Shown: positions 6,905 to 39,952 of the stretch, in pieces | Layout of the letters: every line of letters begins with the position of its first letter | How positions within the stretch are numbered: the stretch's first letter is position 1 | Origin: an uncultured Candidatus Saccharibacteria bacterium | Lineage (GTDB): Bacteria; Patescibacteriota; Saccharimonadia; Saccharimonadales; Saccharimonadaceae | Reading direction: 5' to 3' | Assembly: GCA_947425085.1 (NCBI GenBank) | Contig: CANDYV010000004.1 | Location: forward strand, 1-40,105 | DNA length: 40,105 nucleotides | Position numbers and translations under genes: made by a program | Notes under the pieces: model-generated | Databases searched by the model: none | What the model saw: only the letters and a program-made list of their open reading frames with translations | Told to the model about the DNA's origin: nothing

Positions 6905-8098
6905 ATGTCTAAAAAATGGGAAGAACGACAAGTTAGCCTCGGCGGCGCAATCATCACCGGCGCAGTCACCTTAATCATCGGGCTCTTTATCGGCATCAAT
7001 TGGAATAATATCTCCTCAACTTTCTTACCTTGTCTCGGCGTCAAAACGACAACTGCAAACGACTGGTCCGCTCTGGACGAAGTCTACTCAACCCTCGTCC
7101 AAAATTATGACGGCGAGGTCAGCAAAGAAGAAATCATTGAAGGTGCGAAAAAGGGAATTGCCGCCGCCGTAGGCGACGTTTATACCGCCTACATGACGCC
7201 GGAAGAAGCTAAAGAATACGAAGCCTCTCTCCATGGCGACGTCGGCGCCGGCATCGGTATCGAAATGGCGCTCCGCGACGGCTACGTCCGTGTCCTCCGC
7301 ACCCTTCCCGACAACCCCGCCGGCAAAGCTGGCATAAAAGCTGGCGACATCATCTATAAGATTGACGGCGAAGAAGTCTACGCCGAAGGCTCCGATGTGA
7401 TTGCCTCGAAGCTACGTGGAGCCGCCGGAACTACGGTCAAACTTACTGTCGTCCGCGATGGCGAAGAAAAATCCTTTGAGCTTACTCGCGAGACTATCAA
7501 CAATGTCTCCGCCTACGCCACTTACGACGGCTCGACCGCCATCATTACCGTCACTCGTTTCGATAGCAACACCGGCACTCTTGTCCAGAAGATTGTAGCT
7601 GACGAATTCCCGAAACATAATGTCAAGAAAGTCATCCTCGATCTCCGCAACAACGGCGGCGGATATGTCTCCGCTGCGAAAGACCTTCTCTCCCTCTGGG
7701 TTGACGGAGACGTCGTCCTCGTTCAAAAAACGAATGGTATCACCCACGACACGACTTACGCCAACCGCGGCCAGGCGAAACTCGCCGACATCCCGACCGT
7801 CGTCCTCGTCAACGGCAGCACCGCTTCCGCCTCCGAAATTGTCGCCGGCGCGCTCAAAGATTACAAAAAAGCCACTATTCTCGGCGAAACCACCTTCGGC
7901 AAAGGCGTCGTCCAAACTCTCTTCGACCTCTCGAAAGGCAGCCTCCTCAAAGTCACTACCGCCCGCTGGTACACCCCGAACGGCTCCAGCATTAACGGCG
8001 AAGGCATCACCCCAGACGTCGAAGTTGAACTAACTTACGATGATACCAACATGGGTCGCGACCCCCAGCTCGACGCCGCCAAGAAACTCGAATTGTGA
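6905..8098 (+). CDS. S41-family C-terminal processing protease with PDZ domain
   Basis: PDZ region (GIEMALRDGYVRVLRTLPDNPAGKAGIKAGDIIYKIDG), catalytic VNGSTASASEIVAGALKDYKKATILGETTFGKGVVQ. Confidence 0.92.
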   Translation: MSKKWEERQVSLGGAIITGAVTLIIGLFIGINWNNISSTFLPCLGVKTTTANDWSALDEVYSTLVQNYDGEVSKEEIIEGAKKGIAAAVGDVYTAYMTPEEAKEYEASLHGDVGAGIGIEMALRDGYVRVLRTLPDNPAGKAGIKAGDIIYKIDGEEVYAEGSDVIASKLRGAAGTTVKLTVVRDGEEKSFELTRETINNVSAYATYDGSTAIITVTRFDSNTGTLVQKIVADEFPKHNVKKVILDLRNNGGGYVSAAKDLLSLWVDGDVVLVQKTNGITHDTTYANRGQAKLADIPTVVLVNGSTASASEIVAGALKDYKKATILGETTFGKGVVQTLFDLSKGSLLKVTTARWYTPNGSSINGEGITPDVEVELTYDDTNMGRDPQLDAAKKLEL

Positions 8099-8206
8099 TA
8101 TAATAAAAATATGAACTGCGCGAAGTATCTATACAAAAGATTTTAATCTTTTGGTGATACGAGCCGCAGCATAATTCCATTATATCTATGATATAATGGA
8201 ATTATG
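8099..8206 (+). promoter_or_regulatory. Riboswitch-like element, copy 1: promoter, three-stem domain and start-codon hairpin upstream of glutaredoxin
   Basis: TATAAT 8099-8104. Stems CTGCG 8116-8120/CGCAG 8165-8169, GTATC 8125-8129/GATAC 8156-8160, CAAAAGAT 8134-8141/ATCTTTTG 8146-8153. Hairpin CATAATTCCATTATAT-CTATG-ATATAATGGAATTATG 8170-8206. Confidence 0.75.
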
Positions 8207-34000: not shown

Positions 34001-34109
34001 TATAATATATATAATGAGGCATACGAAATGTCTATACAAGGGAGTTTACTCTCTTGGTGACATGAGTTATGCCATATTCTTATTATAACTATGTTATAAT
34101 AAGAATATG
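34001..34109 (+). promoter_or_regulatory. Riboswitch-like element, copy 2: promoter, three-stem domain and start-codon hairpin upstream of gltX
   Basis: TATAAT 34001-34006. Stems GGCATA 34018-34023/TATGCC 34068-34073, ATGTC 34028-34032/GACAT 34059-34063, CAAGGGAG 34037-34044/CTCTCTTG 34049-34056. Hairpin CATATTCTTATTATAA-CTATG-TTATAATAAGAATATG 34073-34109. Confidence 0.75.
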
Positions 34110-38136: not shown

Positions 38137-38242
38137 AAAACCTAGAAATTCCAGAAACCTTCAAGCTCTATCACCATTGTAGAGTTTTATTTTTCTCCAC
38201 CCCTGTTAGCCAATCCCCAAACTCTACAACCGTTGTAGAGTT

Positions 38243-39733
38243 TTACCGGGCGATACAACGGACAGACATACCATAATTCCTAGCATATGTATCGCCTAAC
38301 GGAGTAATAGTGGATGCACCGTTAAACGTCAAGTAATACGCAGTCGTACTGCTCGAAGCTTTCGGAGTAGAAGACCAGTAATATCCTTGGTCGCCAGCAC
38401 GAGCAAATAGCCAGCTGTTATTAGGTTCGACTTTACCACCCCTCACAAAATAATACGGAGAACTAGTTAATACGGCGACATTAGCACCCACAGAACCAGA
38501 GTTTATAAGTCCCTGCAAGCTACCGATACTCGTATCATTCGCTGTTGGCAATCTCCACCCCTTCGGGCAGATTGAATCGCTCGCCTGTCCAGAATAAATC
38601 TCACCACCAGTTCCAGCCGTCGCCGCATTCCAGGAGTAATGATTGCCCAAAATATAATGCGCATTAATATCCGCATTAGCGCTAGTAGGCGTCAAATATG
38701 CAGTAAATTGACTGGTGCAATTCGCTGCGCTATTTTTAGGGTATCCACAATCATTCGCTGTCGTCGGATTAGTGATTCGATAATTTCCCAAGTTCCAAGA
38801 ACGCGCCTGCATCCGGTCGTTCGTGATCGTCGAGCTAGTCGCACTCGTTGCTGTTGTATACCCAGGTGTCCAATTCGCAGTAACGTCTGAATCGCTCGGC
38901 GTCAACGCCTTCGATGTCGACAAATCAAGGTCTAAGTTCTGCGTCATCCAACATTTACCATCCGTCAATTTACCAACCCAATAGTATTTTCCATCGCGCG
39001 CGTCTTTCAGCTGCGCCGTATCGCCGCTTTTCGACGCCGCACAAACCGCCGTTGTCATGTCTTGCATGTTTGCCAACGACGTGAGACCAACTATCTCCAA
39101 CGGCGAAGACACCACACTCATCGTCACCGAATTCCGATAAGTTCCGGCCGGTTTATCTGCACCGATATTCGCCGCAAAGCTCAAAGCATAAGTCGTCGTC
39201 TCACTCGGGATACTTGTCGAAGCATTCGTATAAAGCGTTTCGCCCCGTCCCGCCGTCGAAATCGCCTTATATTGCGCATCATCCGCCACGGTATCCGTAT
39301 TTCGCGCCCAAGCATAGCCCCAGGTATTCGTCGTCATCTCGCCGTACTTCTTCGTTCCAGAAATCGGCGCAATCGTCTCCGTCCCGCCAACTCGCGTCAA
39401 ATTCGCACTACTACTCCCAACATAAACACTATATCCTCCCGAATTCTCCACGCTCACCGTCGCTTTCACTAACAATTTCGCCGACGCACCGGCCGTTGCT
39501 GACGGCGCCATCGATGCCGAGCCCTCCGTCGGACTAAAAGCAATATTCACCGTCGAAATTGTCGTCGCTTGCGGAGAAACTAAATCATCATAATTTTCAC
39601 TATTCTCAATAACTTCTTCCAGCGCACTCGCCCTACCTCCAATAAGTGGATTGACTAATAGAAATGCTAGTAGCAATAAACTTATACAGCTCGCACTCCC
39701 GGCGACATTAACTTTTCTTTGACCTCTTCGCAT
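38243..39733 (-). CDS. Secreted FISUMP-domain surface protein 2
   Basis: Paralog of gene 1: RGQRKVNVAGSASCISLLLLAFLLVNP and KDARDGKYYWVGKLTDGKCWMTQNLDLDL. RBS AAGGAGGG; ATG at 39733. Confidence 0.85.
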   Translation of the reverse strand: MRRGQRKVNVAGSASCISLLLLAFLLVNPLIGGRASALEEVIENSENYDDLVSPQATTISTVNIAFSPTEGSASMAPSATAGASAKLLVKATVSVENSGGYSVYVGSSSANLTRVGGTETIAPISGTKKYGEMTTNTWGYAWARNTDTVADDAQYKAISTAGRGETLYTNASTSIPSETTTYALSFAANIGADKPAGTYRNSVTMSVVSSPLEIVGLTSLANMQDMTTAVCAASKSGDTAQLKDARDGKYYWVGKLTDGKCWMTQNLDLDLSTSKALTPSDSDVTANWTPGYTTATSATSSTITNDRMQARSWNLGNYRITNPTTANDCGYPKNSAANCTSQFTAYLTPTSANADINAHYILGNHYSWNAATAGTGGEIYSGQASDSICPKGWRLPTANDTSIGSLQGLINSGSVGANVAVLTSSPYYFVRGGKVEPNNSWLFARAGDQGYYWSSTPKASSSTTAYYLTFNGASTITPLGDTYARNYGMSVRCIAR

Positions 39734-39952
39734 CACGGCCCTCCTTAAATTGGTTTACGAACACCCGAACGCCGCCACTCCATATAAAAATGACACCGCA
39801 AGGGTGTTCGACAAACTAACCTGTAAGCGAAACGCAATTAACGGATAGCCTGAACCTTACGGTGCCATGTTTTTCGTCAATTACGAATCGCTACTGTATA
39901 TAAAAATATACGCTTACTTTAATGGTTTAATTTGTCGAACACTTTCATTATA
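39734..39952 (-). promoter_or_regulatory. Structured 5' leader and promoter of FISUMP gene 2
   Basis: Minus-strand TATAAT (39947-39952) followed by GAAAGTGTTCGACAAATTAA and blocks shared with leader 1. Confidence 0.75.

Follow-up and report, generated by a model that had tools for sequence, protein, structure and literature searches.

Perfect hairpins on the start codons of glutaredoxin and gltX genes in Saccharibacteria are probably the right ends of a miniature structured mobile element

We analysed a 40,105-nt stretch of DNA from an uncultured Saccharibacteria bacterium (the window), in which two perfect hairpins end on the start codons of a glutaredoxin-like gene (grx) and of gltX. Each hairpin is the 3' end of a 93-nt unit, and the ~55 nt before the hairpin form a second conserved fold. 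We consider it more likely than not that the hairpin forms the right end of a mobile element that is miniature (~93 nt), structured and non-coding. If this is right, the element spares its target gene, its end re-creating the triplet on which it lands, and its ATG form brings a promoter inside a perfect hairpin. It would also show how insertions at the essential gltX and valS can be tolerated in a tiny genome in which leaderless genes abound, and would offer a natural test, in Saccharibacteria, of an AUG sealed in a long transcript against an AUG open in a leaderless one.

The two hairpins had been described in a sequence-only reading of this DNA, and the coordinates and sequences given there match the letters of the contig. 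That reading had assigned them a 16-bp stem and a 5-nt loop. Both are indeed perfect hairpins, but the C and G of 'CTATG' pair as well, so the stem is 17 bp and the loop is a 3-nt TAT; an inverted-repeat search returned, for both, arms of 17 bp with 100% complementarity and 3 nt between them. It had also correctly noted that the loops are identical while the stems differ yet stay perfectly paired, and that the last three nucleotides are the start ATG (Table 1). The window contains no other perfect inverted repeats of ≥15 bp with a loop of 3–8. When the 40-kb window was simulated 100 times with a first-order Markov chain, which kept its dinucleotide content on average, no inverted repeats of ≥16 bp appeared; nor did any in 50 simulated 40-kb sequences of local AT-rich composition. 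Both hairpins are far beyond chance. An intrinsic terminator (a G+C-rich hairpin followed by a U run) was rejected, as at both loci the stem is A+T-rich and is followed by coding sequence.

The 3' arms read TATGATATAAT-GGAATT-ATG and TATGTTATAAT-AAGAAT-ATG, and both contain the TGnTATAAT-N6-ATG arrangement that had been proposed as a leaderless promoter. In the 717-kb G000 assembly, TATAAT-N6-ATG has 80 matches and its reversed pattern 7. The 3' arm therefore resembles the usual leaderless promoter of this organism, and both genes have the -10 about 6 nt before the start codon that marks leaderless genes. The upstream TATAATs had likewise been placed correctly, at 8099 (grx) and 34001-34006 (gltX). 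Each of them also precedes an ATG (8111-8113 and 34014-34016), a feature that the earlier description lacked.

When the two loci were aligned, similarity began at the upstream promoter and continued through the 55 nt to the hairpin, and the length from P1 to the ATG was equal in both window copies (92 nt). The structure was derived by folding these copies. The predicted fold common to both has three helices; C-GAA/GA-G-Y and TATA/GT form its internal loops, and a further loop is TTTA. The z-score of the fold at grx was -9.4 when the hairpin was included and -4.4 for the module by itself; for the whole unit at gltX it was -8.2. Between the window copies, 14 of 36 pairs changed on both sides with 0 broken, against 6.9 in shuffles, and 9 pairs within the module showed such two-sided changes. 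The gltX orthologues of G000 and G064 differ by 9 two-sided changes (2 in the stem and 7 in the module). Across 10 copies, 26 of the 36 pairs covary. The A9 pair counts lean to the structure because A9 was fitted to a model; A4 and A10 were not fitted. In the module, G-U pairs outnumber A-C pairs (11 vs 2), so the gene strand is the folding one, either as RNA or as single-stranded DNA. Module and hairpin are predicted to fold side by side, and only C34073 (gltX) is able to pair in both. Rfam gave no match at the gathering level, and the best hit of a permissive search of the grx region was a chance match (E 1.8).

Table 1. Features of the window at the grx and gltX loci; folded features are predicted
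Feature	Position	Strand	Details
Left flank at grx	8094..8113	+	TGTGATATAAT-N6-ATG, presumably the gene's own leaderless promoter and first start codon; extends over the stop of an S41-peptidase gene lying upstream; relatives without the insert have one such promoter immediately before grx
Inserted 93-nt element at grx	8114..8206	+	Recurs at 34017-34109 and in other genomes; missing in relatives
Conserved folded module at grx	8116..8169	+	Fold z, covariation
grx module P1	8116-8120/8165-8169		Then pair C8121-G8163
grx module first internal loop			GAA/GA, bulged C8164
grx module P2	8125-8129/8156-8160		Then internal loop TATA/GT
grx module P3	8134-8141/8146-8153		Tetraloop 8142-8145
Perfect 17-bp hairpin at grx	8170..8206	+	Loop 8187-8189
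Extended -10 in grx 3' arm	TG 8189-8190, TATAAT 8192-8197, N6, ATG 8204-8206	+	
Glutaredoxin-like gene (grx), 88 aa	8204..8470	+	PF00462, E 6.3e-9
Left flank at gltX	34001..34016	+	TATAAT 34001-34006, N7, ATG 34014-34016; relatives without the insert have one leaderless promoter and ATG here
Inserted 93-nt element at gltX	34017..34109	+	
Conserved folded module at gltX	34019..34072	+	Helices as at grx, all pairs kept
Perfect 17-bp hairpin at gltX	34073..34109	+	Loop 34090-34092, TATAAT 34095-34100, ATG 34107-34109
gltX, glutamyl-tRNA synthetase, 483 aa	34107..35558	+	PF00749, E 2.3e-79

We searched 174 genomes of the genus with a covariance model of the unit and detected it in five: G000, the genome of the window (2 copies), G064 (3), G023 (1), G013 (4) and G196 (6). 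In G196, the first model had detected one copy, and a second model brought the number to six. As far as found, the element is confined to one Saccharibacteria genus; the order-wide search scored at most 10 candidates per genome in an even draw, and members may have been missed. A degenerate pattern scan of 84,980 species recovered the full unit of this type (class I) only in Saccharibacteria, besides chance matches. Matches in Campylobacterales and Sporosarcina were judged by eye to be without P2 pairing and the hairpin. Two R1 matches were also rejected: that in G012 looks like a divergent promoter, and that in G026 is weak and without the module. In a first pattern scan of viral contigs, matches outside the host genome resembled, by eye, conserved phage sequence. 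Carriage by phages was rejected as well, since the two viral matches to a refined pattern were judged by eye to be chance. Most of the genomes are draft assemblies; the ones that the pattern scan names were assembled from metagenomes, and G000 has a completeness of 75%. Literature searches on leaderless promoters or structured RNAs in Saccharibacteria and Patescibacteria yielded nothing on this unit.

The unit precedes grx and gltX in G000, gltX, valS and tig in G064, and gltX in G023 (gene names rest on Pfam). The layout seen at grx, with the hairpin ending on ATG, recurs with perfect stems at valS, tig and the other gltX genes. At gltX of G013, the hairpin is intact and the 5' half of the module is missing. 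A sister form occurs in three G013 copies and in G196, where the final triplet of the hairpin is, instead of ATG, the TTG that opens a TTGAC -35 box. The upstream promoter is weak or missing in some copies (TATAAG at G064 gltX, none at G013 gltX). A class II variant, which has another module, occurs at tig in G018 and G177 in the same layout as class I, and once before a TTGACA box (L209, G061). Several TTG copies (L236, L238 and L239 in G196, L088 and L093 in G013) share a promoter past the hairpin, TTGACTTTT(T/A)..CAATCTGTG.TACAAT. In some of them a start, GATAGTATAAGC, is shared as well, and some seem to stand ahead of long stretches in which no gene is obvious.

Comparison with relatives shows that the unit was inserted and at which position, with empty sites at three loci: gltX, grx and a 69-aa gene downstream of G013 copy 3. 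At gltX, the empty sites of G073, G066, G063, G120 and G005 have one leaderless promoter and an ATG, and the filled sites of G000, G064 and G023 read promoter-ATG-unit-ATG. At grx, the unit is found in G000 only, and its closest relative here, G064, has just TGTGCTATAATAAGAAC-ATG. At the 69-aa gene, the TTGAC(A/G) box of relatives is intact; in G013 copy 3, the unit interrupts the native TTGACA box precisely behind TTG and restores it with its own terminal TTG. In most copies, the triplet on the left equals the last three bases of the unit (ATG/ATG or TTG/TTG), a rule from which L236 and G013 copy 2 deviate on the left side. Every copy read has A as the first base of its right flank (ATG^A or TTG^A). 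Apart from the triplet, left flanks are no more like the right arm of their own copy than mismatched pairs are, and on this ground we rejected a long target-site duplication.

Two of the G196 copies, located on separate contigs amid unrelated sequence, are identical over ~125 nt bar single-base gaps. In a gltX tree, G000 and G064, both carriers, are sisters beside the non-carrier G073, and G023 and G013 fall among non-carriers. These positions require several gains or losses of the unit. Counter-points to mobility are that no mobilising enzyme is tied to the unit and that the occupation of gltX in four species fits vertical inheritance with losses too.

The sequence-only reading had interpreted the loci as dual-promoter switches, with an upstream promoter as one of the pair. 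A promoter-like site is present upstream, but it is poor or absent in some copies, and since the orthologues without the unit show insertion behind a native ATG, it is most simply the old promoter of the gene. The same orthologues leave the claim that the arrangement evolved as a switch unsupported.

In the model that we propose, the left part of the element would be a stem with the two conserved internal loops, and the right part would be a palindrome. The triplet immediately left of the insertion, either ATG or TTG from a -35 box, would recur as the final three bases of this palindrome, so that the target triplet stays intact beside the downstream sequence. Insertion would strand the native promoter and start codon upstream. 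The palindrome of the ATG form would supply the extended -10, and leaderless transcripts of the gene would start within the element. In RNA made from the old promoter, the AUG would be sealed and little product would result, whereas the AUG of the leaderless RNA would be free, and expression should shift to the internal promoter. In silico, the probability that the AUG is unpaired was 0.001-0.008 (grx) and 0.02-0.52 (gltX) in read-through RNA, and 0.84-0.95 (grx) and 0.74-0.87 (gltX) in leaderless RNA. These values agree with the earlier proposal that long RNA hides the ATG and leaderless RNA frees it, and a dual-promoter effect at the ATG forms is plausible. However, hiding the ATG cannot be the general function because the sister form lies before a -35 box, outside the mRNA. 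We infer that the gene is expressed from the internal promoter, that the read-through RNA stays silent and that the element is still mobile. The mobile-element reading leaves unexplained how the palindrome comes to fit its own gene in each copy.

In its layout, the unit is reminiscent of the single-strand transposition of IS200/IS605 elements, with its guide/target logic. IS200/IS605 elements insert 3' of a short target that recurs at their right end, and have complementary bases at the hairpin foot (PMC6006769). Most copies of the unit likewise lie 3' of a short target identical to its last bases. With both the ends of IS200/IS605 and of their non-autonomous derivatives and REP/RAYT elements (PMC6006769, PMC3733652) the unit shares small, strand-specific folded ends, complementary 'guide' bases at the hairpin foot, and several species-specific copies per genome, although its copies are few. 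It differs from these systems in that its guide and target at the right end are joined in a single unbroken 17-bp stem, no guide lies between the left target and the left stem, no Y1 transposase is linked, and a plausible promoter and start codon are included. REPs have GTAG/GTGG or CGTC at the hairpin foot, none of which was seen in class I copies; the separate class II motif does contain GTAG.

Y1 transposases were found in three of the five carriers and in 5 of 169 other genomes (p 6e-4), with the tendency of carriers to have large genomes as a confounder. None was found in G000 (75% complete) or G013, none of the 8 Y1 loci examined had a class I unit, and the ends of an intact IS200-like tnpA of G064 carry other hairpins. 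We rejected a Y1 transposase as the carrier of the unit: it co-occurs, but its ends differ and no unit lies alongside. Given the genome-size confounding, the transposase's own ends and the lack of a unit beside any, we did not assign the unit to IS200/IS605. MITEs and similar repeats can bring promoters to neighbouring genes. Like the unit, MITEs are short, non-coding, promoter-bearing, multicopy and patchy. Unlike them, the unit has no inverted repeat joining both ends; its palindrome sits at one end and differs in each copy, and the terminal inverted repeats and, beyond the ATG/TTG triplet, the target duplication that define MITEs were not found.

An alternative that we regard as possible but unlikely is a cis-regulatory RNA, which adds a sensor to the dual-promoter switch proposed earlier: in the leader from the upstream promoter, the 55-nt fold would sense a ligand or protein and the hairpin would seal the AUG, and the internal leaderless promoter would be constitutive. 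Riboswitch-like leaders that sequester a start codon do have a structured 5' module followed by a hairpin over that codon, as the unit has. Its conserved unpaired loops and variable stems resemble an aptamer, the G-U excess in the module indicates that the gene strand folds, the AUG is sealed in the long RNA and open in the leaderless one in silico, stems are perfect at every class I ATG-type locus, and the layout is constant at gltX, valS, tig and grx. However, module and hairpin are adjacent rather than mutually exclusive, so there is no visible route by which a ligand would open the hairpin. Unlike such leaders, the unit matches nothing in Rfam, its module and hairpin have no alternative pairing, and it has a sister form upstream of a promoter; the mutually exclusive pairings of aptamer and expression platform that define riboswitches were not found. 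The upstream promoter is degenerate or absent in some copies, the TTG forms lie outside the mRNA, the target genes have no pathway in common, and deletion of the 5' arm in silico left the gltX AUG closed. We also gave no weight to a conserved leader peptide (MNCAKYLYKRF-like) from the upstream ATG because its frame follows conserved RNA letters and ends at differing points.

The stems of class I ATG-type copies are fully paired in 7 of 7 cases, and those of the class II ATG-type copies (G018/G177) are 15/17 paired. TTG-type stems range from perfect to imperfect, and the G196 copies are imperfect. The gltX genes of G000 and G064 have diverged by 42% at fourfold sites, yet both stems are perfect. 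These comparisons suggest upkeep at each locus, beyond what an inert relic would need, which leaves two candidate explanations, locus-level selection and template switching of the DNA. Selection at each locus is what would maintain a mobile cassette that inserts behind start codons and installs a dual-promoter switch, made of a sensing fold, a sealing palindrome fitted to the gene and a leaderless promoter; we hold this combined reading to be quite unlikely. Hairpins can be both created and preserved by template switching (PMC8794818), and E. coli undergoes quasipalindrome mutations (PMC7202029). We judge it very unlikely that such correction, not selection on RNA pairing, keeps the stems perfect and that the hairpin has no function of its own. 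Imperfect pairs are rarer in the hairpin (3/157) than in the module (17/190; p 0.005), which leans towards a DNA explanation, in a comparison of related copies and small numbers that precedes the finding of the imperfect-stemmed G196 copies. Those imperfect G196 stems count against template switching, which also leaves the conserved module, the exact site after ATG or TTG and the patchy spread unexplained.

It is highly improbable that the palindrome is a bidirectional leaderless promoter or operator, with the 5' arm as a second promoter firing left: the minus strand of this arm does read TATAAT-N6-ATG, and facing TATAATs with a shared extended -10 are common between divergent genes of the genus, but no minus-strand frame is conserved (in copies read by eye, stops come within ~10 codons, for example MLRLVSPKD and a stop at grx), and divergent promoters are unpaired through their 6-nt spacers, where class I ATG-type copies are always paired. 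As a separate observation, facing leaderless genes share a palindromic extended -10 (ATTATAnCA..TGnTATAAT) in 118 of 118 genomes searched, far above a reversed-pattern control.

The class II family, a second structured repeat family (GTAGGAG..GAGTRAA-stem-TTTTGAG.CGACG), was detected in 21 of the 174 genus genomes by a strict pattern, of whose matches a few are chance (loci L194-L218, e.g. L196:1440-1600, L204, L205 and L212), and had no Rfam match. Many of its copies form a predicted ~120-nt multibranch fold directly 3' of a same-strand tRNA gene (Tyr, Gln, Val, Ser, Leu or Glu). At ~1480-1580 of L214 (G196), a class II module lies at the very start of a broken Y1 transposase gene. Elsewhere in the window, at 38163-38243, the inverted repeats AAACTCTACAAC/GTTGTAGAGTTT lie directly past the stop of the minus-strand ORF 38243..39736 and are possibly a terminator, separate from the hairpin element.
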